From: Planctomycetota bacterium | GTDB taxonomy: Bacteria; Planctomycetota; Phycisphaerae; WQYP01 | DNA: 60,664 nucleotides | Direction: 5' to 3' | NCBI GenBank assembly: GCA_021810145.1 | Contig: JAJZJL010000008.1 | Span: forward strand, 1-60,664 | The notes under the pieces: model-generated | Databases searched by the model: none | What the model was told of the DNA's origin: nothing | What the model saw: the letters and a program-made list of their open reading frames with translations, nothing else | Part shown: in pieces, positions 34,807 through 58,800 of the stretch | Layout: every line of letters begins with the position of its first letter | How positions within the stretch are numbered: position 1 is the stretch's first letter | Position numbers and translations under genes: made by a program

Positions 34807-34845
34807 CGGGGGCAGCAAAGATAAGCCCTCTTTAAGACAGTCGAA

Positions 34846-35742
34846 ATGCCGGACAATATGAAAAACACAGGGAACCGTCGAGTCGCCGAAGCTAAGGCCC
34901 ATAAAAAGAGAATGGGCTCATCTCTTCTTTTTAGGGACGCAGAAAACTTGTACTTCGGTACTGGTCGTAGGCGAAATCTGAATAAAGCGTTATCCCTGTA
35001 CCTGGCCGCTGCGAAACTTGGACATATTGCCGCGGCCCGCAACGCCGCCTGGATGCTCAGCACGGGCGACGGTGCATGCAGGTCCCCGAAGATATCCGCT
35101 GAACTTTTCCGGTTTGCGGCTGAACGCGGCGATTCATATTCCCAATATCGGTTAGGAATGGTTCTTCGCGACGGATGGGGGGTGCGGCGCAACCTGGCAG
35201 AGGCAGTTTCTTGGTTCCGGAAAGCCGCCGGTGGTAATGATCGCGACGCCATGCACGAATTGGGGTGGGCATATCTGCGCGGAAGGGGGATCGGACGTGA
35301 TATCCGAAAGGCATTTCATTGGTTCAGAGAGTCAGCCATAAATGGCGATCCGATTTCAATGTGCAACGTGGCCGACATGTATCTGTGGGGCGATGGCGTG
35401 CCCCGGAACCTCTCGAAAGCGTTTTATTGGTTCCGCGAAGGTGCGCGGAGTGGCGAGGTTCGCTCAATGTACGAACTTGGCGTGTGTTACGAGCATGGCG
35501 AGAGCGTGCCCGCAAACCCGCGCCGGGCGGTGTATTGGTACCGCAAGGCCGCGCAGGCGGGGCACCGGCGAGCACAATACAATTTGGGCCTGTGCCTGCT
35601 CCGCGGGGAAGGGGTGAAACGGAATTTCGATGAAGCGGTTGCGTGGTTGCGAAAAGCCCGCTCGCAGGGCCACAAAGGGGCGGCCAAGGTGTTAAACCAC
35701 CTGCGTACGAGAGACGGGCGGAAACTCGAAATGAGCCGGTGA
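34846..35742 (+). CDS. Sel1-repeat protein next to an RHS C-terminus
   Basis: A 298-residue soluble protein built from about six or seven Sel1-like repeats of ~36 residues. Clear units include AAARNAAWMLSTGDG, SQYRLGMVLRDGWGVRRNLA, AMHELGWAYLRGRGIGRDI, SMYELGVCYEHGESVPANP and AQYNLGLCLLRGEGVKRNFD, each followed by an AxxWxRKAA-type helix. The fold is an alpha solenoid used for protein binding. No signal peptide is present. It follows the RHS-CT2 gene by 39 bases, so it could be the immunity or accessory protein (inference). Two possible ATG starts (34846, 34858) lack a clear ribosome site. Confidence 0.85.
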   Translation: MPDNMKNTGNRRVAEAKAHKKRMGSSLLFRDAENLYFGTGRRRNLNKALSLYLAAAKLGHIAAARNAAWMLSTGDGACRSPKISAELFRFAAERGDSYSQYRLGMVLRDGWGVRRNLAEAVSWFRKAAGGNDRDAMHELGWAYLRGRGIGRDIRKAFHWFRESAINGDPISMCNVADMYLWGDGVPRNLSKAFYWFREGARSGEVRSMYELGVCYEHGESVPANPRRAVYWYRKAAQAGHRRAQYNLGLCLLRGEGVKRNFDEAVAWLRKARSQGHKGAAKVLNHLRTRDGRKLEMSR

Positions 35743-35857
35743 CGGCCGTATCTGCGTGAGCCGTCTAATTGGGTGAAGGAACTGGAAAAATTGAGCGAGT
35801 GGCCACGGCAGGGTAAAATAGCGGACGACCAAATTTGAAAGACTGGACAGGCAGATA

Positions 35858-37414
35858 ATGGTAGCGGCGACGGAAAAAAATAGAAGTTCAAAACGCTTAT
35901 GCAAACACAGACACTTTGCCGGTTCTCCGCTATCCTCGGATTCCCCGGTGGTGGATCACTTCGTGTCTTTGAGCCTTCGTGGTGAAACCGGTTCCATTGG
36001 TTCCGGCGGGGATCAGTATATTGGCCTCGATCAGTTTGGCCGGATTGTGGATCAGAATTGGATTAACTCCGCCGCCGGCGTCAGCACCAACAATTTGACG
36101 TATTCTTACGATGCCAATTCCAATGTTACCGCCGAGAACAATTTGCTGGATACGGCCTATTCGCAAACGTTTACCTACGATCAGCTTAACCGCCTGGCAA
36201 GCAGCACACAGGGCGGGTCGGCCTACCAATCCTGGAACCTCGACATTGGTTATGCACTGTTGAGGCAGGAGCCGAAATCCCGATTGTCCGAAGGAGCGGC
36301 GTTTCGGGAGACGCGCTATACCTCGAACGGTTCAACCCAAACCGAAACGGCCAATGCGCAGAACCAGATTACATCCATCAGTGGCAGCACGGCACCCACC
36401 TACGATGCCAATGGCAATATGGCCTCCGGAAGTTTAACGTCGCAGCCTGCTGCGAGTGTCACCATGGTCTACAATGCGTGGAATCAACTCGTATCCGTGT
36501 CCAACGCCGCCGGGCAGGTCATCGCCCAATACACGTACAATGCGATGGGCTACCGTATCACGGAAACCTATCCGCAGGGTGGGAACGGCATCGCGGCGGG
36601 AACCGCGCTCAATATTTATTACGATTCGTCGTGGCAGGCTATTGAGACTCGCACCGATGGCACAGCCAGCAGCAACGTGACATCGCAAACAGTATGGTCC
36701 GCGGCGTATATCAACGCCGTTGTGCTCCAGGATACATATTCCGCCGGCGTGATTCAGCCGAACAGCCGGCTGTATTTCCTGCAGGACGCCAATTGGAATA
36801 CCACTGCAATTGCTGGCCTCAGCCGCAGCAGTTGGCAGGTGATACAAAGATATGTATATAGTCCCTACGGCACGGTTACCACTTTGGACGCCGGTTGGAT
36901 GCCACAGGGAACCCCACCCGGTATCAGCAATCTCTATCAAGGCATGACGCTCGACCCGGTGACCGGATTATATTATGCCCGCAACAGAAACTATTCACCG
37001 TCACTTGGCAGATTTATCTCCCAAGATCCCTTGCGATATATCAACGGTGCCAACACGTATCAGTTTGTGATGAGCAACCCGGTGGGAAATGTGGATCCGT
37101 GGGGATACAAATCGATTGGCCCGCTGCCGCCTGGCATTACCCCAGTTCCTAACCCGGCACCACCGGGAGGCCACACACCAACCCTCCCTGGCGGCCCCCC
37201 GAAGGGGAAGCCAGGCGGCAAAATCACGGGCACCGTTAATCCAACGAACGGGGCGTGGGGCCTCGGTGGAACGCTCTGGATACAGGTATGCCCGCTGCCG
37301 CCCTGGTTCCCGGCGCCGCCGGGCTCGGGGATCTGGGTCGGCGGGGCGGTATCAGGTGGCCCCCATGGCAAGCCCCATACGGGCGGCTTCATCGGGATTG
37401 GAGGTACGTTCTGA
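35858..37414 (+). CDS. YD-repeat/RHS protein with Gly/Pro-rich C-terminus (CT3)
   Basis: A 518-residue RHS module. The first ~50 residues look like read-through of repeat-type spacer. From about residue 55 YD repeats follow: GLDQFGRIVDQNWINSAAG, YSYDANSNVTAENN, FTYDQLNRLASS, TYDANGNMASG, MVYNAWNQLVSV and YTYNAMGYRITE. The core end is NLYQGMTLDPVTGLYYARNR with SLGRFISQDPLRY and NPVGNVDPWGY (near residue 415). The last ~100 residues are glycine/proline-rich (LPPGITPVPNPAPPGGHTP and onward to GGFIGIGGTF) with no recognised toxin motif. The stop overlaps the next start (TGATG). It may be a fragment of a larger ancestral RHS gene. Confidence 0.75.
   Translation: MVAATEKNRSSKRLCKHRHFAGSPLSSDSPVVDHFVSLSLRGETGSIGSGGDQYIGLDQFGRIVDQNWINSAAGVSTNNLTYSYDANSNVTAENNLLDTAYSQTFTYDQLNRLASSTQGGSAYQSWNLDIGYALLRQEPKSRLSEGAAFRETRYTSNGSTQTETANAQNQITSISGSTAPTYDANGNMASGSLTSQPAASVTMVYNAWNQLVSVSNAAGQVIAQYTYNAMGYRITETYPQGGNGIAAGTALNIYYDSSWQAIETRTDGTASSNVTSQTVWSAAYINAVVLQDTYSAGVIQPNSRLYFLQDANWNTTAIAGLSRSSWQVIQRYVYSPYGTVTTLDAGWMPQGTPPGISNLYQGMTLDPVTGLYYARNRNYSPSLGRFISQDPLRYINGANTYQFVMSNPVGNVDPWGYKSIGPLPPGITPVPNPAPPGGHTPTLPGGPPKGKPGGKITGTVNPTNGAWGLGGTLWIQVCPLPPWFPAPPGSGIWVGGAVSGGPHGKPHTGGFIGIGGTF
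36238..36421. repeat. 184-base block shared by two RHS modules (copy 2)
   Basis: Second copy of the block at 33696-33879. Here the block follows natural RHS sequence (SAYQSWN), while in copy 1 the DNA just upstream is unrelated. The near-identity suggests recent gene conversion or duplication. Confidence 0.85.
37039..37105. repeat. 67-base RHS tip repeat shared with 32461-32527
   Basis: Two differences over 67 bases. The identity stops just after the codons for VDPWG, the point where C-terminal domains change in RHS proteins. This is the sort of short homology that allows tip exchange. Confidence 0.82.
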
Positions 37415-39860: not shown

Positions 39861-41591
39861 CTAATATCGCCAACTGGTGATGTCGGCCCCTTTTGGCGCA
39901 GTTGCCAGCATGTGTTTGACCATTGCCGGAATTTCGCGCAATGGCGCGGTCATGGCGCTGTGTGCCGCCGACATGTTCGGCCCGCCTCCCCACCAACCGT
40001 GCGGCTGGCCGGGGCCGTATTCAAACGTGCCGCTGACATGCGGGTGGCGGGTTCCGGCCAGAAAGTTCTGGAGCATCCGGACCGCATTGTTGAGGTAAAA
40101 CGTATCCATGGTTCCGACAGTCAGGTGGAGTTTACCCTTCAATTCCGGGCCGATGGTCCGCCAGTGTGTTTTGAGATAATGGCACAGATCATAATGCTTG
40201 CGCCAATACATTGCGGTTTTTCGATTGATTTGGCCGGTCAGTGGATTCCAGATCGGCGCGGGGTATCCATTTGGCCCCACCGGACCGAACACGGCCTGCC
40301 ATGCGTCAAACTGGCGAGATGAACGCCCCTTGGATCCCAGAACGCGTTCCCGGAGCATTTCGCGAGCCATGGTTGTAATAATGGATCCGTCGGTAAGCCG
40401 GGCGGCCGGGCGGGGAACGCGTGAAAATGGGCCGAGATTCCAGAAGGCATTGCGGTCGCGGTAAAGATCGACAGCCATAAAGGCATGAAAATTCACCGGA
40501 TCCGGGCATGCCACCCACGCTCCGTTGAATTCGCGCGGATAAAATATCTGCGAAGCCAGCGCTTCCCATCCGCCGGTGGAATATCCGTAAAGTGCCCTGG
40601 CCCAGCTCTGTCCGATTCCGCGATACTTTTGTTCCACAAACGGGATCAGTTCATGTACGATCGCATCGCCGTAGGGGCCCACGTTGGCCGAGTTCACGGC
40701 ATAGGAATCGTCATAATATGGATTGGGGCTTTGAATAATGAGAATCAGAACATGCGGCAACGTGCCCGATTTCCAGGCCTTATAGAATTGATACTCATAT
40801 TGCGCCAGCAAATCGGTATGGCCGGTTGAATCTGCCGCCGGCGGTGTGGAGGTCATGGAAATCGGAACGGCGAACTGGCGCTGAAAATGCCCCTCATAGA
40901 CAATCAACGGATAATGCGCATTGGGATGCGAGTACCAGCCGGCCGGCAGTTGCACCATCGCTCCCAGATACATCGGCCGGCCCCAGAAACGGCTGAGTAC
41001 CGGACTTTCCATGCGGAAGCGCTTGAGATAGCGGGTGCTGTGCAGCACCGGCAGCGGTTTAATGATGTGATTCAATGTCAGGTGAATCGTACCCGGCCGG
41101 TCCGGATTGAAATAGACGCGTTGCGGGGTGCTGTATAAATTTCCGGGTTTTCGGTTCCATTGCTGGCCCTCGCCCTCATCATTGGGCAGCTTGACTACCG
41201 CACCATCGGATAGATGGAAGGTTGTATAGACGTTAAATAATGCCTGCACTTCGTAATGCCCCGCAGGCACGTTCCTCATGCTTTTAATTGGATAACCCAG
41301 TGAATGGCCGCCGATTATTTCCGGTTCCCCCGCTTTCCATTGATTGCACTGATGTCCGAATATTTCGGCGGTTTCTATGCTGTCATTGACCTCAAAGCGC
41401 GGTTGCCGGCCGCCATTGGCCGCGAGTATGACATACAGCCGCCCCTGTAACGGCCTTCTGCGCACGGCGTGCGGAAAAGTCACGCTGAACCGCAATCCTG
41501 GGGCGGCGCGTACATGGGCCGGCCCAGGCAGCAGGGCGATAGCGCACATGGTTAAAATGAAACTTCCGCCGTAAAGTCGAGGCAATCGCAT
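39861..41591 (-). CDS. Secreted esterase-family alpha/beta hydrolase
   Basis: A 576-residue exported hydrolase. A signal peptide covers about residues 1-29 (FILTMCAIALLPGPAHVRA). The first ~190 residues form a beta-rich domain; the hydrolase part resembles the enterochelin esterase/putative esterase family, with GDAIVHELIPFVEQKYRGIG followed by the nucleophile motif LYGYSTGGWEALA (near residue 340), a mid-domain DxxN-type loop, and a late GQPHGWWGG that may hold the histidine (near 540). Likely targets are acyl or feruloyl esters on polysaccharides (inference). ATG 41591 has AAGGA seven bases upstream. It lies downstream of the sulfosugar operon on the same strand, 408 bases from the aldolase. 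Confidence 0.82.
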   Translation of the reverse strand: MRLPRLYGGSFILTMCAIALLPGPAHVRAAPGLRFSVTFPHAVRRRPLQGRLYVILAANGGRQPRFEVNDSIETAEIFGHQCNQWKAGEPEIIGGHSLGYPIKSMRNVPAGHYEVQALFNVYTTFHLSDGAVVKLPNDEGEGQQWNRKPGNLYSTPQRVYFNPDRPGTIHLTLNHIIKPLPVLHSTRYLKRFRMESPVLSRFWGRPMYLGAMVQLPAGWYSHPNAHYPLIVYEGHFQRQFAVPISMTSTPPAADSTGHTDLLAQYEYQFYKAWKSGTLPHVLILIIQSPNPYYDDSYAVNSANVGPYGDAIVHELIPFVEQKYRGIGQSWARALYGYSTGGWEALASQIFYPREFNGAWVACPDPVNFHAFMAVDLYRDRNAFWNLGPFSRVPRPAARLTDGSIITTMAREMLRERVLGSKGRSSRQFDAWQAVFGPVGPNGYPAPIWNPLTGQINRKTAMYWRKHYDLCHYLKTHWRTIGPELKGKLHLTVGTMDTFYLNNAVRMLQNFLAGTRHPHVSGTFEYGPGQPHGWWGGGPNMSAAHSAMTAPLREIPAMVKHMLATAPKGADITSWRY

Positions 41592-41999: not shown

Positions 42000-42875
42000 T
42001 TACGATTCCGGATACTGAATCAAAGCCGCTTTTCCATCGGAACCGACCGCACGAATGATTTCCTTGACATCCTGCTTTGTTTTCTCCATGGCCCCGCGCA
42101 TGACTCGCCATGCGTGATGCTCATGATCCATGGTGCGGCTGCAGTCGTTGAAATACCGGATATAGTTCATCCGCAGGCCTTCACCAAAATTGATCTTGGT
42201 CATACCCGCCTTGACCGTGCGGCTGATATCTTCCATCGAAACACCGCAGGTGCCATGCAACACCAGCGGCACGTTCGTGGCGGCCCGGAGTTTGGCGATC
42301 AGATCGTAATCAATTCCCTTCTGCTCTTTGAAAATGCCGTGCGTGGTGCCAACCGCCACGGCCAGCAGGTCCACATCCACCTTGGACAGGAACTCGCGCG
42401 CTTCCTGAACGCTGACGGTGGGAGCCTTGCGGCCTTCGGCATCCGAGCTTTTGATGATGTGGCCAATTTCAGCTTCGACACTGATACCCAGCGGACGCAC
42501 CATGTTGATAATTTCCTTTGTGCCGCGGACGTTGGCCTCCATCGGCTGATCCGCGTAATCAATCATCACATGGGTAAATCCGGCTTTGACCGCCCGCGCT
42601 ACAGAGGCCGGGCTTTTTCCATGATCCAGGGCAATGGCGACGGGAATGGTGCAGTTCTGGGCGAGAAACCGGATCAGCATGCCGGCGTAATCGTAACCGC
42701 GGTACTCCAGATTCGGCTCATAGCACTGAATAATCAATGGCGATTGCAGTTCCTCCGCGGCCTCAATAATGGCCCGGGTGATGTCATACGTTCCGCCGTT
42801 GGTATTCAACGCGGGAACGGCAAACCCCTTGGCGACAGCCTGATCACAGAGCATTTTGGCATTGACAAACTTCAT
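42000..42875 (-). CDS. Class II ketose aldolase (FbaA/GatY/KbaY family), last gene of the sulfosugar operon
   Basis: A 291-residue class II aldolase. Zinc and catalytic features are visible: VAIALDHGKSP with Asp and His (about residues 80-90), VEAEIGHI (about 133), AVAVGTTHGIF (about 175) and PLVLHGTCGVS (about 205), with a later INFGEGLRM. This family splits phosphorylated ketoses such as fructose bisphosphate or tagatose bisphosphate. Standard sulfo-TAL pathways do not need it, so its role in this operon is open: it may recycle the sugar phosphate made by the transaldolase or act on another sugar. ATG 42875 has GGAG eight bases upstream. It starts 39 bases after the symporter stop. Confidence 0.88.
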   Translation of the reverse strand: MKFVNAKMLCDQAVAKGFAVPALNTNGGTYDITRAIIEAAEELQSPLIIQCYEPNLEYRGYDYAGMLIRFLAQNCTIPVAIALDHGKSPASVARAVKAGFTHVMIDYADQPMEANVRGTKEIINMVRPLGISVEAEIGHIIKSSDAEGRKAPTVSVQEAREFLSKVDVDLLAVAVGTTHGIFKEQKGIDYDLIAKLRAATNVPLVLHGTCGVSMEDISRTVKAGMTKINFGEGLRMNYIRYFNDCSRTMDHEHHAWRVMRGAMEKTKQDVKEIIRAVGSDGKAALIQYPES

Positions 42876-42914
42876 GGAAGGTCTCCTTATTAAATCCAAC
42901 AAAACGGAACGATC

Positions 42915-44414
42915 TTAACACTTGCGAGCGGCCTGCCCGGCAGGTATTTCCAATTGCGCATCGGGCAGAACCTCGCCTTCAACCGCCTGGCGCTGCTGCT
43001 GCATGACCGCCACGACATCTTCGAGACTGCGTTTGGTCGGCGGCGTAACGGCGCTGACAATCACATGTGCCAAAATCCCGGCAAGCGTGGGGATCACGGC
43101 ATTGTTCAGCCACGCGGCCGACGGCGGCGCAAACATTCCCAGTAACGAAACCGACGGGGTAATAACCAATGCGGCAATGGCACCCTGCCAGGTTGCCCGC
43201 TTCCAGAATCTGCCAAGCAGAATGATAATGGCCAGACCGCTCATTGTTACGGGCAGAAACTTCACCACAAAACCCACAATGGATCCGGCGTGCATCGCCA
43301 CTGTAATGGCCGCGGCGAACGCTCCGATCAGCGCCAGCCGGACGGTCAGAAGCGGTCGCTGAGGCAGGCGGCCGGTGGCCAGGGGGTAAATATGTCTTAC
43401 AAAAAAGGTGCTGGAGGTCATGGCCATCCAACTGGCGCAGGATACAATTCCCGAAGCCACCGAAATAACGACCAGGGCCGCCAGCCACGCGGGTAAAACG
43501 TGCATAACCAGCCAGAGCAACGCTTCGTCGGGATCCTTCAGGTGAGGCATGAGTTTGAAGGCATACATCCCGGTTATGGCGATCACCACGGAAAAGACAA
43601 TCACAATCAGTCCGGCCGTAACCATCGCCCAGCGCGCAACCGATTCGCTTTTGGCGCTGTACATGCTCAGCCGCCGGCCCGGATCGGCGACAACGGCCAG
43701 AACCAGCGACACCAGAAGTCCGGCGACCTTCCACCGGCCATAGGAGGCAACGCCTAAAAATGAAAAATAGGCCGGCGGCATGGAATCTCTGAGTCCCGTC
43801 AGTCCTCCGCTGTGGGACAAAGCCGAATAGGTCAGAACGCCGAAGCCGCAAAGGAGAATCAGCGCCTGGACGAAATCGGTATAGACCACACTTTTGATTC
43901 CCCCGGGAATGGCGATGCCCGCGGCGATTAATCCCGCCAGCACCACGCTCCAGTGCAGGGACAGGTGCGTAACCGCGGCCAGAACAGCCGCGGCACCCAT
44001 GATCTGCACGGTCAGCCAGCAAAGCTGAGAAAGAAACAGGCTGATATTGGAGAACTCGGCGACAATCCGATTATCCCCGTAATAGGACGTGATTTCCTCG
44101 CTGAGGGTCATGAATCGATAGCGGCGCATGACGGCAAAACCCAAGCCGGTTAATGCCGTGCCCAATCCCAATCCAATGGGGTACGCACTGCCGGTCCAGC
44201 CGTGTTGATAGGCCAGGCCCGAAGCTCCCACGATCACGCCGGTACCGATACATCCGGCGGTAATGGTTCCGGTGAGCACCCAGAATGGAAAATTGCGGCC
44301 ACCGATGACGTAGTCGGATGATTTTTTTATTTTCAGCATCCAGAAGGAAGAAAACAGCAGCATGCCAACGGCATAAAGCGTCAGGCCCAGTGCAATAGCG
44401 GCATGTGTTCCCAT
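42915..44414 (-). CDS. Sodium:solute symporter (SSS family), candidate sulfosugar importer
   Basis: A 499-residue membrane protein with about 13 helices. The family start is SSDYVIGGRNFPFWVLTGTI (about residues 32-51), followed by the sodium-binding helix CIGTGVIVGASGLAYQHG and IPGGIKSVVYTDFVQALILL, the SSS core signature. The late helix SVASGIVSCASWMAMTSSTF has the second sodium-site pattern. Sugars, amino acids and carboxylates are typical substrates. Its place inside the operon, after the isomerase (99-base gap), suggests sulfoquinovose or a related sulfonate as cargo (inference). ATG 44414. Confidence 0.88.
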   Translation of the reverse strand: MGTHAAIALGLTLYAVGMLLFSSFWMLKIKKSSDYVIGGRNFPFWVLTGTITAGCIGTGVIVGASGLAYQHGWTGSAYPIGLGLGTALTGLGFAVMRRYRFMTLSEEITSYYGDNRIVAEFSNISLFLSQLCWLTVQIMGAAAVLAAVTHLSLHWSVVLAGLIAAGIAIPGGIKSVVYTDFVQALILLCGFGVLTYSALSHSGGLTGLRDSMPPAYFSFLGVASYGRWKVAGLLVSLVLAVVADPGRRLSMYSAKSESVARWAMVTAGLIVIVFSVVIAITGMYAFKLMPHLKDPDEALLWLVMHVLPAWLAALVVISVASGIVSCASWMAMTSSTFFVRHIYPLATGRLPQRPLLTVRLALIGAFAAAITVAMHAGSIVGFVVKFLPVTMSGLAIIILLGRFWKRATWQGAIAALVITPSVSLLGMFAPPSAAWLNNAVIPTLAGILAHVIVSAVTPPTKRSLEDVVAVMQQQRQAVEGEVLPDAQLEIPAGQAARKC

Positions 44415-44513
44415 AGGTTATGCCCTTCCCATTCTAAACCGCCCGTTAAGACCTTGGCCGTTGCGCACTGCTGCTGCAACCTGTTTGGCTGTCAAACGCA
44501 ACTGCCGGCCGAG

Positions 44514-45920
44514 TCACACAAACTGGATATGCATGGCCCGCGCCAAACGCCGCAGCATATCCATGTGGTGCCCCTCAAAGAGAACCACATGATGCGGCAT
44601 GCCTTGATGGCAAAGCTCCTCAAACCATTCCCGCGGGTCCTGCCCGTTGAGTTGCGCCAGAGCGTTGGTGGCCATCAGATGGCGTCGGGGCTTGATGGTG
44701 CGCCCTTCCCGGGCGGTAAGCCAATATTTTCCGTCCGTGCGCCAGAATCGCAGAATGGTTACCGGCATGTTTATTCGCAGCGAAGCCTCAAGCACCGCCG
44801 GTTTTTTAATGTTGAAATGGCGCGCTATGGCCGGAGCGCCGGGTTCTCCCGGCGGCGGGCAAAGCGACATCGGCGCAGCGCCGCCATGCCACAGCGTAAT
44901 GGTGCTGTCGTCATGTTCCAGCCAATCCGAAAGATACGCTCTGCCCATCCCCAGGCTTTCGCCGATCCATGCGGTCAACGCGCCGTCGGCATCTCCTTCG
45001 CAGGCCACGGCCCGGCCTTCATCCACCAGCCGGGCAATTGCGAGGTAGGGCCACTGACCAAATTGATTCGGCATTTCCGGCCATTCACGAATCGTCAGCG
45101 CATCAAGCGATTCCTGATCCATAAATCTACGCATCGCCATATACAAGCGCGATGCCATCGGCAGATCCCCGTCAACGGTATCTTTGTGCTCCAATCCCAA
45201 GGTTCTGACTGCTTCCACATCGGCGGCAACCTTCTGGTCGCTGAAGCCGAGCACCACGTCGGCGAATTCCATGAGGCTGAATGTTTGCAACTGCGCCTGC
45301 AGCCCGTGATGAATCGAAAAGGGATCAACGCTCATGGCAAAATAACCGGGGGCCTGCCCGCCGATACTGCCCAGCCGCACCGACCGCAAACGCCGAACCG
45401 TGGCCGCCAGCCGCACCGCCTGCTTCAATCGCTGCTGTGTTTCAGGGTCATCCGGATCGCCATAGACCAGTTCAAACGCATGTCCCATCTGACGCAACGT
45501 GGACGCCCAGCAATGCGCGCCAACCAGCGAGCATGAACTGATCATATCGCCCTGCTGATTCTCGGGTGTCGCCCACAACAGCGGCGGATCGGGCCAGAGT
45601 TGCGCCAGCGTCGGAGCCAGGCGTCCATCGGCCATGGTTGTCTGCAGGAGCACAATGGCATCGACTCCTCTGGCCTGACATGCCGCCAGTGATTGCCGCA
45701 GTGATGCGTCATCAACCGCCTTTTCCGGCGGCTCGAATGCAACGAAATCCGTGCCGGTGAGCATGTTGCGCACGCGCTGCTCCATCTGCCGGCCCCATTC
45801 CATGTCAAAGCCCGGGCGGCGCCGGCCCAGAAAGATAATTCCCGCAACAATGGGTCTGTTTCCGGAAAGTGTATCTGTGGTGCGGGTCACACGTCCTGTT
45901 TCCAACGAATGACTGATCAT
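44514..45920 (-). CDS. L-fucose/L-arabinose isomerase-like protein, candidate sulfoquinovose isomerase
   Basis: A 468-residue aldose-ketose isomerase of the L-fucose isomerase-like class. The N-terminal half has IVAGIIFLGRRRPGFDMEWG and GVDAIVLLQTTMADGRLAPT; the middle, VACEGDADGALTAWIGESLG (about residues 300-320), supplies the metal-binding glutamate and aspartate, and TITLWHGGAAPMSL (about 340) a histidine. Known: the sulfo-TAL enzyme that turns sulfoquinovose into sulfofructose belongs to this superfamily. Here it overlaps the aldehyde dehydrogenase stop by four bases (ATGA), so it is made with SLA-pathway enzymes. A role on fucose or arabinose is less likely because no kinase or lactaldehyde genes follow. 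Confidence 0.82.
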   Translation of the reverse strand: MISHSLETGRVTRTTDTLSGNRPIVAGIIFLGRRRPGFDMEWGRQMEQRVRNMLTGTDFVAFEPPEKAVDDASLRQSLAACQARGVDAIVLLQTTMADGRLAPTLAQLWPDPPLLWATPENQQGDMISSCSLVGAHCWASTLRQMGHAFELVYGDPDDPETQQRLKQAVRLAATVRRLRSVRLGSIGGQAPGYFAMSVDPFSIHHGLQAQLQTFSLMEFADVVLGFSDQKVAADVEAVRTLGLEHKDTVDGDLPMASRLYMAMRRFMDQESLDALTIREWPEMPNQFGQWPYLAIARLVDEGRAVACEGDADGALTAWIGESLGMGRAYLSDWLEHDDSTITLWHGGAAPMSLCPPPGEPGAPAIARHFNIKKPAVLEASLRINMPVTILRFWRTDGKYWLTAREGRTIKPRRHLMATNALAQLNGQDPREWFEELCHQGMPHHVVLFEGHHMDMLRRLARAMHIQFV

Positions 45921-47344
45921 ACATGCACTCCTAAAGATACATGCTTGGTATCCACAAAGGCTTCAAGGCCCTCGATTCCCAGTTCACGGTTCCAGCCGCT
46001 TTGTTTAACGCCGCCGAACGGGCACTGGCTGGTGGACGGAACGCTGTCGTTCAGGCCGATGGTTCCAGCTTCCAGGGCTTCCATCAGCCGCATGGCCCGG
46101 TCCAGATCACGCGTAAAAGCGTAGGCGCTTAGACCGTAGGGTGAGGCATTGGCACGCTCAATGACTTCGGCTTCGGTATCAAACGGGCAGACCGGCGCCA
46201 CCGGAGCGAAGGTTTCCTCGCTCATGCACGCCGCGTGCGCCGGGACATCTGCCAGCACGGTTGGTTCCAGGAACCAGCCCTTGCGCGACAACTGCTTGCC
46301 GCCGCACATTAATCGGGCACCCTGCTTAACCGCGTCCTGGATGTGTTCAAGTGCTTTGAGCACGGCGTTCTGATTAATCAACGGACCGATCTGCACACCA
46401 TCTTCCAGACCGTCGCCCACTTTCATTGCGGCAGCCTGCCGGGTGAAGCGCTCCAGGAATGTATCGTATACGCGGCGCTGCACATAGATGCGATTGGCCG
46501 CAATACAGGATTGCCCGTTATTGCGGAACTTGGTGATAAGGGCGCCTTCCACCGCGGCGTCAAGATCGGCATCGTCGAATATCAGTACCGGAGCATGTCC
46601 GCCCAGTTCCAGCGACAGTGGTTTGATTCCTTCCGCGGCACCGCGAATCAGCGTTCTGCCGACCTCGGTGGAACCGGTAAACGTGATCTTGCGGCACAAC
46701 GGATTATCGAGAAACTCCTGAGCGATCTGGGCGGAATCTCCCAAGACAAGCTGGAACACACCGGGCGGAAGCTGGGCGGCGTGAACACATTCAGCCAGGG
46801 CGACAGCGCACAGAGGCGTGGCACTGGCGGGTTTGAGGATAACCGCACAACCCGCGGCCAGCGCCGGCGCCACTTTGCGCAGGGCCAGCACCAGCGGAAA
46901 ATTCCAGGGGCTGATGGCCGCAACCACCCCGACGGGGGTTTTCACAACCAGATGGCGCTTGCCGCGCACCTGATGTGGAATAATGCGGCCATAAATGCGC
47001 CGCGCTTCCTGGGCAAACCACCGGAGATGATCCACGGACATGGCCACTTCACCGCGGCTCTGGGCCAGCGGTTTGCCATTCTCCATGGTAATGGTGCGGG
47101 CAATTTCATCTCCCCGGCGTTCGAGTTCATCGGCGATTTTCTGCAGATATTCTCCGCGTTCCCGTCCGGGTACCTCCCGCCACAACCGAAACGCCGTTTG
47201 CGCATCGGTAAGGGCCTGCGCCACGGTTGATCGCGGCACCGTGCAGACCTCGGCAATGGTTTCATCGACCGATGGATTGACCACGCGCAACCGGGTTGCT
47301 GTTTGTACCCACCGACCATTGAGATACAGCGGAAGAACCTTCAT
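45917..47344 (-). CDS. Aldehyde dehydrogenase, candidate sulfolactaldehyde dehydrogenase
   Basis: A 475-residue NAD(P)-dependent aldehyde dehydrogenase close to succinate-semialdehyde dehydrogenase. The cofactor and active-site motifs are [20 protein letters not shown] (about residues 140-159), [11 protein letters not shown] (about 222), [18 protein letters not shown] with the general-base glutamate (about 247) and [16 protein letters not shown] with the catalytic cysteine (about 281). Known: sulfolactaldehyde dehydrogenases of sulfo-ED organisms are GabD relatives. Position between transaldolase and isomerase, with four-base overlaps at both ends, fits oxidation of 3-sulfolactaldehyde to sulfolactate. 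Confidence 0.88.
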
Positions 47345-47988
47345 TTTCCGGGCACCTTTTTCCAGTCATTCAGGAACATTTCAATGCCGATATCCGTTAA
47401 CGGATGCTGATACAGCTGCTGAAGAACGTCAAAACTCATCGTGCTGATATCCGCGCCGGCCAGTGCGGCATCCAGCACGTGCAGCGGATGACGGACCGCC
47501 GCGACGATAATTGCCGTCTTAAAGCCATAGTTGCCGTAAATGGTTTTGATCTGCCGAACCAGGTCCATACCGACATGGCCCACCGCATCGAGCCGCCCGA
47601 CAAACGGGCTGATGTAGGTGGCTCCGCATTTGGCGGCCAACAGGGCCTGCAAGGGCGAGAACGTCACGGTCACGTTGGTCTTAATGCCTTCGGAGGCAAG
47701 CGTTTTAACCGCCTTCAATCCTTCCTTCATCAGCGGCACTTTGACGACCACATTTTTGCTTAGCGCGGCAAGCGTTCGTCCTTCCGCAACGATTTCACCG
47801 GCGCTCAAACCGATGGTTTCCAGACTGATCGGCCCGTCCACCAGCGAGCAGATTTCCCGATACACATCCGCGGCGGGGCGGCCGGTTTTTGAAACATGTG
47901 TCGGGTTGGTTGTTACGCCGTCGAGTATGCCCCAGGAGCAGACCTCCCGGATTTGCGAGACATCGGCGGTATCAAGAAAAATTTTCAT
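47341..47988 (-). CDS. Transaldolase of the TalC/FSA type, candidate sulfofructose transaldolase
   Basis: A 215-residue short transaldolase. It starts [20 protein letters not shown] with the substrate loop [15 protein letters not shown]; the Schiff-base lysine is in [13 protein letters not shown] (about residue 85). Later motifs are [20 protein letters not shown] and [15 protein letters not shown]. Compared with ordinary TalC (TNPSLIAK) the loop reads TNPTHVSK, a change close to the substrate. Known: SftT of the sulfo-TAL pathway is a transaldolase that splits sulfofructose and passes a three-carbon unit to glyceraldehyde 3-phosphate, leaving sulfolactaldehyde. The context supports that role here. 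Its TGA overlaps the dehydrogenase ATG. Confidence 0.88.
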
Positions 47989-48024
47989 ATTCGGTGTCCT
48001 TTTATCTTCTCAAAACAATCCATC

Positions 48025-49002
48025 TCAGCTTTCCCGCCGACGCGGCCTGGGAAAATTGACAAAATTCTTCGCATTGCGCCCGGATAGAACGTTCTGCACA
48101 TCCCGGCAGATCGCCGTTACCACACGGTCCTGCGCTTCACGCGTAAATGCGGCAATATGGGGAGTTAAAATAACATTATTCATCGTGCACAGTGCATCCG
48201 AAGCCGGCGGTTCGGTCTGCCGCACATCCAGCGCGGCCCCGGCGATGCGCTTATCCTCCAAGGCCCGGATCAGGTCCTTTTCATCCACGACTTCACCGCG
48301 CGCCAGATTGAGAAAAAAGGCGGTGGGTTTCATTGCGGCGAAACGCTGATAATTAAACAGTCTTGCTGTTTGCGGAGTCAGAGGCAGATGGCATGACACA
48401 AAATCGCTGTTTTTCAGCAGATCTTCCAGTTCAACAAGTTCCGCATGGGTTTCCGTAACGGCTACGGAGTCGGGGCTGATACAGGTGTCGTGTGCGAGAA
48501 TATTCATGCCCATGGCCCGGGCACGCGATGCGGTCAGTACACCGATCCGCCCCAGGCCGACGATGCCCAGCGATTTGCCGTACAATTCCGTACCCACAAA
48601 GCGCTGCCTGTCCCAGCCGCCGCCGCGAACATGCGCATCCGCTTCGGGCAATTTGCGGGCCAGCGACAACATCATGCCAATCGCCAATTCCGCCACGGAA
48701 ATGGAATTCTGGTCGGGGGTGCTGGCCACCACAACTCCCGCCGCGGTTGCCGCCGCCACATCAACATTATCCAGCCCCGCGCCGGCGCGGCCGATGATCT
48801 CCAGCCGGGTTGCCGCGGAAATCAGTTCCGCCGTTACACGCGTCTGATTGCGAACGATCAAGGCCCGGCAATTCGCGACAGCCTTCTTGAGCTTGTCCGG
48901 TGCCTTCCAGAGGCCGGGGTCCAATGTCACGCCGCAGGACGATTGCAGTTCCTCCAGAGCCTTGCCGCTGATATTTTCCGATATGATCACATCCGAACTC
49001 AC
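48025..49002 (-). CDS. slcC: D-isomer 2-hydroxyacid dehydrogenase, SlcC-like (S)-sulfolactate dehydrogenase
   Basis: A 325-residue NAD-dependent 2-hydroxyacid dehydrogenase of the phosphoglycerate dehydrogenase type. The nucleotide site is LGIVGLGRIG (about residues 145-154), with catalytic Arg in LNLARGEVVDE (about 233), Glu in LDVRQTEPP (about 262) and His in LTPHIAAFT (about 281). Known: SlcC of Chromohalobacter, a member of this family, oxidises (S)-sulfolactate to sulfopyruvate. It starts at GTG 49002, overlapping the stop of the next dehydrogenase gene (GTGA). With the ComC-like enzyme beside it the pair would interconvert sulfolactate enantiomers. The precise substrate is inferred from context. 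Confidence 0.8.
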   Translation of the reverse strand: MSSDVIISENISGKALEELQSSCGVTLDPGLWKAPDKLKKAVANCRALIVRNQTRVTAELISAATRLEIIGRAGAGLDNVDVAAATAAGVVVASTPDQNSISVAELAIGMMLSLARKLPEADAHVRGGGWDRQRFVGTELYGKSLGIVGLGRIGVLTASRARAMGMNILAHDTCISPDSVAVTETHAELVELEDLLKNSDFVSCHLPLTPQTARLFNYQRFAAMKPTAFFLNLARGEVVDEKDLIRALEDKRIAGAALDVRQTEPPASDALCTMNNVILTPHIAAFTREAQDRVVTAICRDVQNVLSGRNAKNFVNFPRPRRRES

Positions 49003-50108
49003 GGGATCACCTCATTGCCCTTCAGCGCGTTGAGTGTAAATGGAACATTCAGATCGGAGCATAACTGTGCCAGCTCAGCTCTGGTGGCTTCATCAAGGCC
49101 AATTCCCCGGGCCATGTTTTCCGCCGCGCGCCGGGCCGAGCGCTCGCCCGGAACCAGTATCTGCTGAGTGTCAGGCCTTTTACGGCACGCCTTGATCTGA
49201 TTAATGGTTTCATCCATGCGGCTTATAAACTCATGCACATCCATAAAAGCTTCTATATCCAGCAGGCAGAAGAAGTGCCCCACATCCTGCTTGCGATCCA
49301 TGTTTTTATACATGGATCCGATTTGCGGCCCGACCGCCGAGCCGGACAATACGCCGGAGAGCACTTCCACCAGCACCGCCAGCGCGTAACCTTTATGACC
49401 TGCCATGGTCAGCACCGTGCCCAGAAGCGCCTGTGCCGCATCGGTTGTCGGTTCGCCTTCCGGCGTCAAAGCCCAGCCCAACGGAATTGATTTTCCACTT
49501 TTTTGTGCCGCTATGATGTTCCCGCGGGCAACAATCGACGTAGCCAGATCAATCTTTACCGGAAAGCCTTTTCCGGTCGGAAAAGAAGCCGCAATCGGGT
49601 TGGTTCCGAAAAAAGCCTGACAGCCGCCTTCCGGAGACATCGCCGGTTCGCAGTTGGTCATGGCCAGCAGGATCATATTTTCCCGCGCCGCCCGGTTGCA
49701 GTAATAGGACAGCGCCCCGAAGTGCTGCGAGTTGCGGATTGTCGCCACGGCCACGCCGCTGGCGCGTGCCATCGGCACCAGGAGTTGCAGCGCTTTTACC
49801 GCCTGCACCTGTCCCAGACCGTTGCCGGCATCGACAGCCAGGGTCGCGCCTCGCTGCCTCTGGACCGTCAGAACGGCCTTCGGGGCGATAAGCCCCTTTT
49901 GAATTCGGCGGATATAAATATTCAGCCGTGATACGCCGTGGCTCGATACGCCGTGTACGTCAGCATCCACCAGCGCATCGGCGAGAATATCGGCATCCGC
50001 AGGGCTGACACCGGCTGCAACCGCGATAGACGCCGCGAGATTGCGCACCGCATCCGGCGCATAACGCAGGCCCGGTCCGGCTTTTTGTGGTACTTGCATT
50101 GTCGGCAT
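48999..50108 (-). CDS. comC: Ldh2/malate dehydrogenase-family enzyme, ComC-like (R)-sulfolactate dehydrogenase
   Basis: A 369-residue NAD(P)-dependent dehydrogenase of the type 2 lactate/malate family. Typical segments are DADVHGVSSHGVSRLNIYIR (about residues 48-67), VAVATIRNSQHFGALSYYCN (about 115-134), GTNPIAASFP and LATSIVARGNI, plus the late MAGHKGYALAVLVEVLSGVL. Known: ComC, the (R)-sulfolactate dehydrogenase, is in this family and together with SlcC gives racemase-like conversion of sulfolactate. ATG 50108 has AAGGA seven bases upstream, inside the end of suyB; GTG 50126 is less likely. Ureidoglycolate or malate dehydrogenase is the alternative without context. Confidence 0.82.
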   Translation of the reverse strand: MPTMQVPQKAGPGLRYAPDAVRNLAASIAVAAGVSPADADILADALVDADVHGVSSHGVSRLNIYIRRIQKGLIAPKAVLTVQRQRGATLAVDAGNGLGQVQAVKALQLLVPMARASGVAVATIRNSQHFGALSYYCNRAARENMILLAMTNCEPAMSPEGGCQAFFGTNPIAASFPTGKGFPVKIDLATSIVARGNIIAAQKSGKSIPLGWALTPEGEPTTDAAQALLGTVLTMAGHKGYALAVLVEVLSGVLSGSAVGPQIGSMYKNMDRKQDVGHFFCLLDIEAFMDVHEFISRMDETINQIKACRKRPDTQQILVPGERSARRAAENMARGIGLDEATRAELAQLCSDLNVPFTLNALKGNEVIP

Positions 50109-50118
50109 ACTCTGATCC

Positions 50119-51282
50119 TTACGCACTGCGGTACAGTTTGGTCATGACAAACTCACGATGTCCCAGCACCTCCGCCGCCGTCAGCCGGCCGCCGCAGGTG
50201 CGCAACATGACATCCAATAGCCTGTCACCGGCCTGATCCACAGTCATTTCACCGCGCAGAATGGCTGAAACATCCAGATCAATATGTTCGCTCATGGTTG
50301 TACACGTTACCGGGTTCGCGGAGAGCTTAATGACCGGCTCAATCGGATTGCCGATCACATTGCCCTGGCCCGTGGGAAACAGGTGCACCACCGCGCCCGA
50401 GGCTGCCCATAACGTAACCGCCTCCGCCGCCGCCGAGGATGTATCCATAAACCACAATCCTTTGCCGGAGGGTGCTTCGGCAGGTTTCAGTACACCGACA
50501 AACTTGGTCTTTTTCCCAAGTTTTTCGATATTTCCCAGCGCTTTTTCCTCAATGGTTGTCAGACCGCCGCGGATATTGCCTTTCGTCGGCTGCGATTCCG
50601 AGAGATCATCGGTCTTTTCCTTGAAGATCATTTCATTGTAACTGGTCCAGACTTTCATGAACGCCTCGGCCACCTCGGGGGAGGCCGCCTTGGCGCGGAC
50701 AATGTGCTCGCCGCCGGTAAGTTCCGACGTTTCACCGAATGACGCGGTGGCTCCTTGAGCTACCGATTTATCAATGACATTGCCTACCGCCGGACACGAT
50801 CCAAGTCCCGTGGTGGTATCGGATTCACCACATTTAACCGAGATATACACCTCATCGAGCCGGCATTCCTCGCGTTGCAGTTCACTGGCCCAGTGCATAT
50901 ATTCCTTCGCCTGCACCGATGCCGCGGCAATGGTTTTGATGTCACCGAAGCGTTCGATGGAAAATCCTTTGACCGGCTTACCGGTTTTCGCTATTCCATC
51001 AACAATGCGCTGCGTCCAGCCCGGCTCAATTCCAATAACCACGCACGCCGCGACGTTCGGGTTCGATCCGGTGCCGATCATGGTGCGGAAAAACAGTTCC
51101 AGATCCTCGCCAAACTGCAGCCGGCCATAGGCATGCGGGAGCGCTAAGGTTCCCTTGATGTTATTGGCCACGGCCTCACAGGCCGCGTTGGAGATATCAT
51201 CCACCGGGAGAATCACCACATGATTACGAATCCCGACCCGGCCGTTTTCACGGCGATAACCTTTAAATGTTGGAATCCCCAT
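50119..51282 (-). CDS. suyB: (2R)-3-sulfolactate sulfo-lyase, large (beta) subunit
   Basis: A 387-residue UxaA-family lyase, the large subunit of the enzyme that splits (R)-sulfolactate into pyruvate and sulfite. It begins [20 protein letters not shown], and has [20 protein letters not shown] (near residue 70), [19 protein letters not shown] (near 150), [20 protein letters not shown] and the C-terminal [19 protein letters not shown]. These long matches with SuyB separate it from altronate dehydratase. The size, about 42 kDa, fits SuyB. ATG 51282 has GAGGTGG eight bases upstream; GTG 51294 overlaps suyA. A Fe-S or iron cofactor is expected. Confidence 0.92.
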
Positions 51283-51287
51283 AGTTT

Positions 51288-51566
51288 TCACCACCTCTTG
51301 GTTTTAAGATTGTGTACGTGAACATGTTCGCCGGTTTTAATCGCGGCAACCACTTTGCCAATGTCGCAACCGTATTTGGTCACCGTGTCGCCGGGTTTGA
51401 AATCCCGCAGGGCGATCTTGTGCCCCAGCGGAATGTCCATCAAAGCCGTGAGCTTTGGAGCGGCATTGCCGTGCAGAGCCTTACCCTGCACCGCCTGGCC
51501 GGCTTTGATATCGATGACCGCGACACCGACATCATCTTTTTCGTCATGCATCAGAAACTCCGTCAT
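51288..51566 (-). CDS. suyA: (2R)-3-sulfolactate sulfo-lyase, small (alpha) subunit
   Basis: A 92-residue SAF-domain protein, the small subunit that completes SuyAB. It starts [20 protein letters not shown], and carries [20 protein letters not shown] with [20 protein letters not shown] and the typical end HNLKTKRW. The split into a ~90-residue and a ~390-residue gene is the SuyA/SuyB arrangement. It is the first gene of the nine-gene operon, and its stop lies five bases before suyB. A Shine-Dalgarno GGAG lies 11 bases before ATG 51566. A perfect palindrome upstream at 51773 may be the operator. Confidence 0.92.
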
Positions 51567-51772
51567 ATTTTTTATATCTCCACAATGAACCAGCGATTTT
51601 TACAACAATTCAATCGCCTAGATAAAAGCATAAATGTCCGGACGAAACTTACAAGTCCCAAATTTAGTCAAAAGTTGTATCACTTTTCGTCATTTTTATT
51701 TGGCAAGCCCGCAATCAGGATATTCTTGCCCTATTTTGCCTCGATGACCGGTAAATCCATCGGAATCAGTGT

Positions 51773-55878: not shown

Positions 55879-58800
55879 TTAGTGGCCAAAGCTCCGGGTT
55901 AGTACCCATAGAGTCCTGCCTGTGGGCCGGCCGCCGATATGCCCGGTGTTACGTAGATAGCTCGTCCCGATTATCTTGTTCCCGCTTATAGCCAAGATGC
56001 CGCTGTCGTTACCCCATTCACGCATTGCACCAAAGAAATGCGCCAAGACTTCACAGCTCCCCGTGGCCCGGCTGATGTGGAAGATCGTTCCTCCGCCAAC
56101 GAGCTTACCATTGCGAAAGGTTTCGCCGAAGCTGCTGCCATAGAAATTGCCGTTTGCATCCATGAGAATCTTGGGACGGGTCTGGCAATCCGCGGAACGT
56201 GGGATTACTGCAACACACAGCCCCGCAAGGGTTTTGGAGAACTCATAGACATTGAAGTTATCACCGGTCCAAGGATGCAACGCATTTGGCATGGGGAAAT
56301 CCCCACCCCAATGGTCTGGCAAGCCGGCTCCATAGGCGCAATTTTGGCTGGCTACCAAATTCCCCAGGGCGTATGGCCAATGACGAAATTTCCCGGAAGC
56401 ACTAAGCATAAATACCATCGGCTCGTTCCCCTGCGTCCCCAAGCCAAACAAATTGCCCTTTTTAGCATCAATTGAATTTGGGGCGAGCCACCGCCCCGTG
56501 GATGCCGACCACAGTGTTACAAAATTCGGATGTAGAACCATTGTGGCTGATTTGGCAAACGGAAGTCCAAAAATCTGCCCCGGCGATTCGCCATACAGGG
56601 TTCCCGCCGAAGTGCTTATCCCATTGCATGGCGGCGCGTTGCGGAACACCTTTAACGCACCTGCGCGGTTAATATAGCAGACCACCTTTCCAATGTTGCT
56701 GTACGCGAAAGCCCCCGTGTCGGCCGGAATAATCGTTGTCAGATTCAGTGGATTCTTTAATTGTGTCAGCGCCTGCTTTACACCAGTGGAAATGTTGATG
56801 CGAAAAATCGTTCCGTTTCCATATTGGCCACCGTAATTGGTCGCTGCCAGGATGGAATTGCGCCCTCCGTGGCAAAAGGCTACCATTCCGTGAAGCTCCG
56901 TGGTGAATGCGAATTTTGCAACCACGTGTAGCTTCCAATTGAGGGCGGGCTTGGCTGGTTTAACTCCGGCAGACTCTGTCGGGGCCACCTGAATTTCGGA
57001 ATTTCGGATCGGGAGGACAGGCGGTGTATGGGCAAGAGCCTTCGGAAGCGGCGCTGACGGCTGGATATCAATTTGGGTAATATCGTCCACCTGGCGGGCA
57101 CCGCTCCACTGCGAAATCCCCCAAAGGGTGTCCCCGCCGGATTTTATGAACGGGTGCCAGCTCAATGCCGAAAACGCGGGCGGCAATGCCGCGATTCTCA
57201 CCGGGCTTCCGTTATATGGCACAAGGAAGCAGGTTGCTCGCCCGCCCGTCGTCCACCCAAAGATACCGTCTCGCAACGTAATGAGCTGATTCCTGGGAAA
57301 CACCCCGTAGCTCGGAGAAAAATGAAACAATACCCTGCGATTTCCATGCGGTCCAACGGCAAGCAGTTGCCCAAACCCGTACCGGCCGCCGCGATTCGTG
57401 AATACCATCGTCCCGTTTGGTTCTACGGCGAAAGCGGTGGGAATCGGACCATATCTGCCCCCGAAACGAGCGACAACTTTGAATTTTCGGTCTGCCGACG
57501 AAAATTCAAAAGCCCATGAGAGCAACCCTCTTTTCTTTGACCAAAGCTGCGTCAGGCCATACGCCCGGTCGGCTGTACCGTGGGAGGACTGTCTGATCAC
57601 AAGCCCTTGTGGCGAAAGCAGTCCGGGCAATGGGACCCACGCCGGAAGTACTCCAGGATTCGGGTAGCTCTTGCTGGTCCATCCATGGATGCGAAATGAC
57701 CTTAATACCACTGCGGGGCGGCGTCTCCCGATAACAAATATATATCCGTCGTTGAAATTGCCGCCTGAGGATGTTGTCACTACCTCATTTTTTCCAAAGT
57801 TGTGGAGGCGCACCGATGCGCCTATCTTGGATAATTCCGGCGGACGCCACAAAACGTACGGTACTCCGCTGTGGGGAATGGCAACTATCTTCCATTGATA
57901 CATCATACGGTTGAGCGGCCCCACCGACACTGGCCGCCTGTTCGTAACATATAAGGACTTGTCGCTTCGATTCTGGATAATGCGGCAGGATGGCGAGGCG
58001 AGGGGGCTCCGGGTGATTACGATTTGATTGTAATATCCCGTAGCGATGTTGACCCGAAGCAGAGATGTGACGAGGGGACCCTCCGGCTCTGGTCGGCCAA
58101 AGCCGAGGTGGTCACGAACAAAATGGCTGTCGAAGGCATAAACATACCTCGTTGTAGCTAAAAAGTGCGACCCCAAGGTGTGTCCCGGTCCCAAGGCGAG
58201 CAACGCGTGGGTACCGCCAGTGCGGATATTTCGTTTAACCAGTACTGAATCCGGGGCGTTTGCGGCACCCAGATTCCCCGCTTCGTAGTAAATGTGTCCT
58301 CCCGAATACTCCGCTGGTCTGGAGAGATCACAAGCGTAACCGCCGGTGCTTAAGCTTCCAACATTCTTGAGGTGGATTCCAAATACGGGAGGGGCACTGG
58401 CTGCAAATTTGTGCCCGGTGCCTTCGGGTACTGTCCGCAGCACCGACGGTGGTCCGGCCACTGCTGGTCGGGCTGGAGATGACCGCAGTGGAGTCGCAGC
58501 CTTTGGAGCTTGCATGTTAATCGCATATAACGAATCGCCGCCGGGATTGCCACCTTCGGCAGTCAGTAAGTAAAAGGTGCCAGTAGCACCGGCAACAAGC
58601 CCTGGAAAAGTTGCCGATGGGCGATAGATTATGCCCGCAGGTAAGGACTTTGCCGTTATTGCCCCAGAGTGCGATACGAAAAATATGGTTCCATGTCCGC
58701 CGGGCCCGCTTGCAATGGTAAATCCGGCTACACCGCCGTAAAGCGGCTCAAGCGGATATCGCGGGTACACTCCCGTTGGGCCCGAGAATCTAACCAGCAG

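Follow-up and report, generated by a model that had tools for sequence, protein, structure and literature searches.

A nine-gene planctomycete operon proposed to degrade a sulfosugar to pyruvate and sulfite

We analysed a 60,664-nucleotide stretch of DNA from a Planctomycetota bacterium of the class Phycisphaerae (GenBank assembly GCA_021810145.1, contig JAJZJL010000008.1, positions 1 to 60,664; hereafter the window). It carries nine intact, tightly packed open reading frames (ORFs) on the minus strand, running from 51566 to 42000 (Table 1). We read them, with a probability of roughly 0.68, as an 'extended' sulfo-transaldolase operon that would leave no carbon of a 6-sulfohexose unused; the sugar is most likely sulfoquinovose (SQ), which occurs in the sulfolipid of plants.

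Adjacent genes overlap by 7 bp (suyA/suyB), 8 bp (suyB/ldh2) or 4 bp (ldh2/pgdh, talC/aldh and aldh/isomerase), and the gaps measure 36 bp (pgdh-talC), 99 bp (isomerase-sss) and 12 bp (sss-fba). A preliminary description of the locus, made from the letters alone, had listed nine same-strand genes with small overlaps or short gaps; an ORF check with Pfam and NCBIfam models bears out its coordinates, order and family names, the overlaps being 4–8 bp and the gaps at most 99 bp.

Table 1. Genes of the operon and the conserved block upstream of it, with positions in the window
Feature	Positions	Strand	Family or model
suyA, small subunit of (R)-sulfolactate sulfo-lyase	51288-51566	-	Pfam SAF
suyB, large subunit of (R)-sulfolactate sulfo-lyase	50119-51294	-	GD_AH domains; SuyB clade
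ldh2, ComC-like (Ldh2 family) sulfolactate dehydrogenase, half of sulfolactate racemase	48999-50126	-	NF040650 best model
pgdh, SlcC-like (PGDH/2-hydroxyacid dehydrogenase family) sulfolactate dehydrogenase, other racemase half	48025-49002	-	2-Hacid_dh
talC, TalC-type transaldolase, proposed sulfofructose transaldolase	47341-47988	-	TIGR00875, 302.9 bits
aldh, aldehyde dehydrogenase (ALDH), proposed sulfolactaldehyde (SLA) dehydrogenase	45917-47344	-	SSADH/GabD group
isomerase, AraA/FucI fold, SftI-like, proposed sulfosugar aldose-ketose isomerase	44514-45920	-	NF048012, 161 bits
sss, SSS-family sodium symporter, proposed sulfosugar importer	42915-44414	-	Pfam SSF
fba, class II (metal-dependent) aldolase, proposed fructose bisphosphate (FBP) or sulfofructose-1-phosphate cleavage	42000-42902	-	F_bP_aldolase
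Conserved upstream block, possible promoter/operator	51640-51694	-	Alignment of six suyA upstream regions

Operon conservation and gene co-occurrence

Scanning genome contigs with the isomerase as query returned 32 loci. The complete nine-gene order is found in Planctomycetota (L008, L009 and L010) and in Verrucomicrobiota (L018 and L020), and further loci (L007, L011, L015, L016, L017 and L019) keep it with truncation, decay or an inserted gene. Specifically, sss or fba is decayed or broken in L007 and L011 of Planctomycetota, while contig ends cut the operon in L015 and L017 of Verrucomicrobiota. Protein identity across the operons of both phyla is 56–92%. The nearest loci belong to Planctomycetota/Phycisphaerales metagenome-assembled genomes (MAGs), among which YP3.bin105 (locus L008, identical to G144) falls in the window's own genus. 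These relatives bear out the preliminary description's guess at a planctomycete. Because the order recurs in independent Planctomycetota and Verrucomicrobiota assemblies, it reflects more than chance. A search for the same order in other Phycisphaerae had been suggested at the outset; it recovers the order in Planctomycetota, and also in Verrucomicrobiota.

The window genome also holds a second, partly decayed copy (L038, G000:C24, 11357-16162), with suyA, suyB, a broken talC of which only about the last 70 codons are recognisable, the ALDH gene and the isomerase; Ldh2, PGDH, the SSS symporter and the aldolase were not found at this copy. The preliminary description, right about the operon itself, had overlooked this copy, the likely role of the aldolase and the modular variants of the system. 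In one paralogous line of the genus (L006, L007, L040 and L072), the symporter is a remnant of about 30–35 codons between isomerase and aldolase. In Verrucomicrobiota, a protein of 320–370 aa with no Pfam match is inserted between ALDH and isomerase (L017:3617-4600 and its relatives in L016, L019 and L026).

Co-occurrence was surveyed in 248 Phycisphaerae-class genomes. The isomerase is present in 11/248 and true SuyB (72–100% identity) in 10/248, an eleventh SuyB match reaching only 35%. Nine genomes have both (9/11 and 9/10), giving a Fisher p of 6e-14 by genome and of 5e-7 with one count per genus, which removes kinship only in part. In three genomes of another family (G163, G104 and G127), isomerase and SuyB lie on different contigs: one contig carries the isomerase, a phosphofructokinase (PFK) and a class II aldolase, and the other carries suyA-suyB-Ldh2, accompanied by ALDH in G163 and by PGDH in G104 and G127. 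Furthermore, the same isomerase subfamily stands beside an SSS symporter in Acidobacteria, even where other operon genes were not found.

To judge from these gene neighbourhoods, the system appears modular, with a shared sulfolactate module, swappable isomerases and swappable modules for the C3–C3 split. Such a pattern is hard to explain unless the isomerase produces a ketose that yields a C3 sulfonate. The loci with isomerase, PFK and aldolase, in the three Phycisphaerae genomes and in some Acidobacteria, possibly follow the logic of the sulfo-Embden-Meyerhof-Parnas type 2 (sulfo-EMP2) pathway, and the acidobacterial set may be a sulfo-EMP variant. In six loci of Acidobacteria and one unclassified MAG (L022, L037, L034, L014, L025 and L013), isomerases of this subfamily are accompanied by PFK, a Cgl0159-like class I aldolase or both, and at several of these loci also by a GH2 enzyme or an SSS symporter.

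The sulfolactate-to-sulfite half

SuyB shares 64–72% identity with 13 plasmid-encoded proteins from sulfolactate degraders (Paracoccus, Sinorhizobium mexicanum, Methylobacterium, Cupriavidus pinatubonensis, Caballeronia, Rhodococcus and others), whereas the next best among 314 records reaches 39.5%. In the tree, it lies inside the SuyB group, with a long branch to UxaA-type proteins (support 100/99). In addition, the small subunit is a separate SAF protein, the 92-aa SuyA, whose gene overlaps suyB, and it is 45–53% identical to the SuyB-adjacent SuyA of C. pinatubonensis, Paracoccus versutus, S. mexicanum and Rhodococcus koreensis. In C. pinatubonensis, whose SuyAB has been named as sulfolactate lyase (PMC12890257, PMC9594981), suyAB adjoins the C3-sulfonate genes hpsN/hpsO. 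In view of the identity gap and the tree, we rejected a misidentification of altronate dehydratase as SuyAB; a grouping of SuyAB with altronate dehydratases had been named in the preliminary description as a danger for its pathway. Membership of the window suyB in the (R)-sulfolactate sulfo-lyase family, and thus the back half of the pathway, is well supported by these sequence comparisons.

For the Ldh2 protein, the best NCBIfam model is L-sulfolactate dehydrogenase (NF040650), at 278 bits against a cut-off of 500, and we class it as ComC-like. S. mexicanum and R. koreensis both have homologues of this protein, and of the PGDH-like protein at 41–44% identity, next to suyAB. Specifically, S. 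mexicanum has suyAB followed by homologues of the window PGDH and Ldh2, and is listed as having SlcC, ComC, SuyA and SuyB (PMC12421959); R. koreensis has a contiguous run of suyA, suyB, ALDH, an MFS transporter, another oxidoreductase, PGDH and Ldh. The PGDH and Ldh2 pair is thus linked to suyAB in the window operon, in S. mexicanum, in R. koreensis and in G104 and G127. SLA formed from a sugar has the (S) configuration and SuyAB accepts (R)-sulfolactate, so that an inversion through sulfopyruvate is needed (PMC12421959), which makes the presence of two dehydrogenases chemically sensible.

The sugar-splitting half

The best curated model for the isomerase is SftI, and the next, L-arabinose isomerase, scores 34 bits. 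Its AlphaFold2 model (mean pLDDT 90.7) adopts the fold of arabinose and fucose isomerases, with PDB matches in Foldseek to L-arabinose isomerases (TM 0.82) and 1fui (TM 0.76) at 15–18% identity. The FucI-type metal ligands are in place: Glu308, Asp332 and His444, invariant in 28 homologues, were matched by hand, through motif and spacing, to Glu337, Asp361 and His528 of E. coli FucI, the Glu-Asp spacing being 24 in both. An hhalign comparison of the isomerase profile with the single sequence of E. coli FucI gave no significant alignment. The protein is best read as a divergent aldose-ketose isomerase of a separate subfamily, not as SftI proper. Elsewhere, Planctomycetaceae MAGs (L029-L033) hold isomerases of about 40% identity, with genes for an MFS transporter and a Gfo/Idh/MocA protein as neighbours and no SuyAB seen, a different pathway that draws on the same isomerase superfamily. 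In Ca. Chlorohelix allophototropha (Chloroflexota; L135), a plasmid carries an SftI-like isomerase and a pyrophosphate (PPi)-dependent PFK adjoining sulfite reductase and siroheme genes.

TalC carries Glu57, Lys83 and Phe129, a transaldolase-type active site; E. coli fructose-6-phosphate aldolase has Gln59 and Tyr131 where TalC has Glu57 and Phe129. When the 11 TalC copies from operons or operon-like loci are placed in a tree with 29 others from Planctomycetota, they fall on one side of a branch with support 100/100. All 11 have Trp19, His31, Thr58, Ala164 and Met184; the corresponding residues of the other proteins are Leu, Leu, mostly Val/Ala, Ser and mostly Ile, respectively. Position 31 is near Asn28, position 58 follows the catalytic Glu57, and position 164 is within the AxR/SxR motif, which presumably binds the substrate phosphate. 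The clade-specific changes suggest an altered substrate without telling which. Neither a tight grouping of the isomerase with fucose isomerases nor one of TalC with fructose-6-phosphate aldolases, both raised as warning signs in the preliminary description, is seen. The front half of the pathway, in which isomerase and TalC would act on a sulfosugar, is probable.

The ALDH belongs to the succinate-semialdehyde dehydrogenase (SSADH)/GabD group and is a relative of RlGabD (8c54, 455 bits), a structurally studied SLA dehydrogenase with proposed sulfonate-binding residues Arg171 and Arg289 (PMC10599462). In the alignment, it keeps the equivalents of both (motifs ALRK and FRNNGQSC), but E. coli SSADH has both too, and we dropped the pair as a sign of SLA specificity. 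Because the pair does not discriminate, assignment of the ALDH to SLA oxidation rests on gene context; the ALDH gene recurs beside suyAB or talC at other loci.

Proposed pathway, known systems and flanking features

The gene identities, the conservation of the operon, the membership of SuyB and the co-occurrence of isomerase and SuyB are established at the level of sequence, whereas we infer which sugar is used, which way the two dehydrogenases run, what the aldolase does and that sulfite is released. In the proposed pathway, the SSS symporter would import the sulfosugar and the metal-dependent isomerase would convert it to the ketose, sulfofructose. TalC would then transfer the dihydroxyacetone unit of sulfofructose to glyceraldehyde 3-phosphate (GAP), giving fructose 6-phosphate (F6P) and (S)-SLA. 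The ALDH would oxidise (S)-SLA to (S)-sulfolactate, the SlcC-like and ComC-like dehydrogenases would take (S)-sulfolactate through sulfopyruvate to (R)-sulfolactate, and SuyAB would cleave (R)-sulfolactate to pyruvate and sulfite. A transaldolase consumes GAP and yields F6P, and cleavage of F6P by PFK and fructose-bisphosphate aldolase (FBA) restores GAP. The single PFK match in the window genome, of the PPi-dependent subfamily (C180), and the operon class II aldolase could split F6P in this way and so regenerate the acceptor. A separate FBA gene sits on C173, which makes the operon aldolase a dedicated extra copy.

Several observations weigh against this pathway. The isomerase scores 161 bits against an SftI cut-off of 700 and is classed only as SftI-like; paralogues in the window genome and related genomes score 75–135 bits, and the proteins of Chlorohelix (343 bits) and Zymomonas (288 bits), from both of which the window isomerase is separated by a long branch, score better. 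Against the PDB, TalC is closer to the T. maritima transaldolase (269 bits) than to the sulfofructose transaldolase BmSF-TAL (161 bits). The names SftI and SftT used in the preliminary description are therefore only functional analogies, although its reading of the pathway stands. Isomerase and TalC occur without SuyAB in G014 and G120, and in G054, of the window's family, talC, ALDH, suyA, suyB and Ldh2 (L104, G054:C61) occur without the SftI-like isomerase. Neither an SqvB/SftX cupin nor a sulfoquinovosidase (SQase) is present in the nine-gene operon, and its neighbours belong to GH5-like, esterase, RHS and Sel1 families or have no match, with no recognised SQase among them. None of the genome's GH31 enzymes fits the YihQ-type model well, xylosidase and glucosidase models fitting better, and we rejected them as SQase candidates. 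Finally, no SorA-type (Oxidored_molyb) sulfite dehydrogenase was found in the window genome, a MAG 94% complete.

The L104 cluster holds an unrelated TIM-barrel isomerase-like gene (PF01261), possibly a non-homologous replacement of the isomerase. As to the fate of sulfite, the window genome has one NIR_SIR gene and one PF03601 putative exporter (C45), and export or assimilation is more likely than oxidation of the SorA type. A PF03601 putative exporter also stands alongside the suyAB cluster in one of the three split-contig genomes, and the P. versutus suyAB neighbourhood includes a gene annotated as a putative sulfate exporter.

The sugar itself could differ from SQ: another sulfonated hexose (for example sulfofucose, sulforhamnose or another 6-sulfosugar) feeding an unchanged lower half would fit the separate isomerase subfamily and the lack of a known SQase nearby, and SuyAB serves sulfofucose use in Paracoccus (PMC12421959). 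In L008-L011, moreover, the operon is followed by a Tat-signalled six-hairpin glycosidase-like protein that is not of GH31 or GH188. We nevertheless regard another hexose as unlikely, with SftI remaining the top-matching model of the isomerase and SQ being described as one of nature's most abundant organosulfur compounds (PMC12890257), against only two reports of sulfofucose (PMC12421959). Quite unlikely, in our estimate, is a sulfo-EMP2 style of splitting, in which the sugar is phosphorylated by a kinase encoded elsewhere and cleaved mainly by the class II aldolase, TalC only feeding or balancing the pentose phosphate pool. The role as sulfofructose-1-phosphate aldolase is kept as a rival because, in L069-L071, relatives of the operon aldolase occur together with PFK and a member of this isomerase family; a dedicated aldolase would also be superfluous if housekeeping enzymes, such as the separate FBA, recycled F6P. 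Against this, no nine-gene operon contains a kinase, the one PFK detected in the genome depends on PPi and is just 35–37% identical to the isomerase-linked PFKs, and TalC, with its changes near the active site, is retained in all nine-gene operons. A reading without any sulfonate, in which a two-subunit dehydratase of the UxaA type and two hydroxyacid dehydrogenases degrade an ordinary sugar acid, is highly improbable: SuyB does lie within the galactarate/altronate dehydratase superfamily, and in other contexts (Variovorax) two-subunit UxaA proteins have Ldh and hydroxyacid dehydrogenases as neighbours, but a long, fully supported branch and the gap between 64–72% and at most 39.5% identity set it with the sulfolactate degraders.

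The six-hairpin protein (about 825 aa) is encoded directly 3′ of the aldolase (L008:10000-12477, L009:13909-16386, L010:13625-16102 and L011:12897-15383), overlapping the aldolase gene by 4 bp in L008-L010, and is absent from the window; its AlphaFold2 model (pLDDT 31.5) was left unused. It is a candidate for a new sulfosugar glycosidase. More speculatively, the isomerase and TalC clades of Acidobacteria and of the Planctomycetes-Verrucomicrobia-Chlamydiae (PVC) group may be independently evolved sulfosugar enzymes. A single isomerase family would then be combined with three splitting modules (TalC; PFK and class II aldolase; PFK and Cgl0159-like class I aldolase) and often with a common SuyAB, possibly for a sugar other than SQ, set free by glycosidases of a new family (in L008-L011 the six-hairpin protein, in Acidobacteria GH2). 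We hold this idea only tentatively.

The claim that the operon joins two halves usually divided between organisms is right as to the joining, but the operon is not the first of its kind. Clusters of sulfo-transaldolase (sulfo-TAL) genes with SuyAB were predicted in 2022 for Thermotogae and Chloroflexi (PMC9594981), and a tandem pathway from sulfofucose through SlcC-ComC-SuyAB has been demonstrated in Paracoccus by authors who regard such coexistence within a single bacterium as unusual (PMC12421959). Like the window operon, the Thermotogae and Chloroflexi clusters combine a FucI-superfamily isomerase, a transaldolase, SLA oxidation and SuyAB for full use of SQ carbon; the window operon differs in phylum and has, in addition, an SlcC/ComC-type pair, a class II aldolase of its own and an SSS symporter. 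Paracoccus wurundjeri likewise runs from sulfosugar through SLA and sulfolactate, with SlcC/ComC inversion and SuyAB, to sulfite release in one bacterium (PMC12421959), but it has an Entner-Doudoroff-type front end, an ABC transporter and no recognised SLA dehydrogenase, in contrast to the isomerase, transaldolase and GabD-like ALDH of the window. With the sulfo-TAL (sulfo-SFT) systems of Bacillus megaterium, B. aryabhattai and E. rectale (PMC9594981, PMC11968277), the window operon shares a FucI-superfamily isomerase, acting on SQ in those systems, and a TalC-family transaldolase, and the aerobic Bacilli oxidise SLA to sulfolactate, as proposed here. The Bacillus and E. rectale systems, however, excrete their product, lack SuyAB and contain the SqvB/SftX cupin and SQase, and the window TalC is nearer ordinary transaldolases than BmSF-TAL. 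The same four enzymes, from the same families and similarly clustered, degrade sulfolactate through SlcC/ComC/SuyAB in Chromohalobacter and Paracoccus (PMC9594981), but there the module is fed by an imported C3 sulfonate, whereas in the window a front end that splits a sugar, encoded in the operon itself, would supply it.

The principle is thus already predicted for other phyla; what appears new is the phyla and the divergent front-end enzymes, whose isomerase and TalC subfamilies differ from characterised ones. No paper placing sulfo-TAL with SuyAB, or the tandem sulfofucose pathway, in Planctomycetota or Verrucomicrobiota was found in the result listings of open-licence literature. SQ makes up one of the largest pools of organic sulfur, and cross-feeding in two steps is the usual account of how it is broken down; if our reading holds, uncultured Phycisphaerae and Verrucomicrobiota would release sulfite from a sulfosugar without a partner. 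Surveys with query proteins from other phyla may overlook such operons, for example one (PMC13372026) that applies a BLAST filter of ≥30% identity and names neither Planctomycetota nor Verrucomicrobiota in its main text. The divergent enzyme set could also be useful for testing how enzymes of phosphorylated sugars become enzymes of sulfonated sugars.

Upstream of the operon lie about 670 bp without an obvious gene, followed by a divergent GH5-like gene (52238, plus strand); downstream, a 408-bp gap separates it from a same-strand esterase-family gene (39861-41591). About 75–130 bp before suyA, six regions of the window genome and sister MAGs share the pattern TGACGAAAA...TTGA..AAATT.GG.ACTT, and in two of the six (L009/L010) the block includes a perfect 14-bp palindrome, AATTTGATCAAATT. 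The block is compatible with, but no proof of, a shared operator. Farther away, on the downstream side of the operon region, the window contains genes with RHS and Sel1 repeats (33502-37414); it also has a minus-strand ORF of 1499 aa with no Pfam match (55879-60378).

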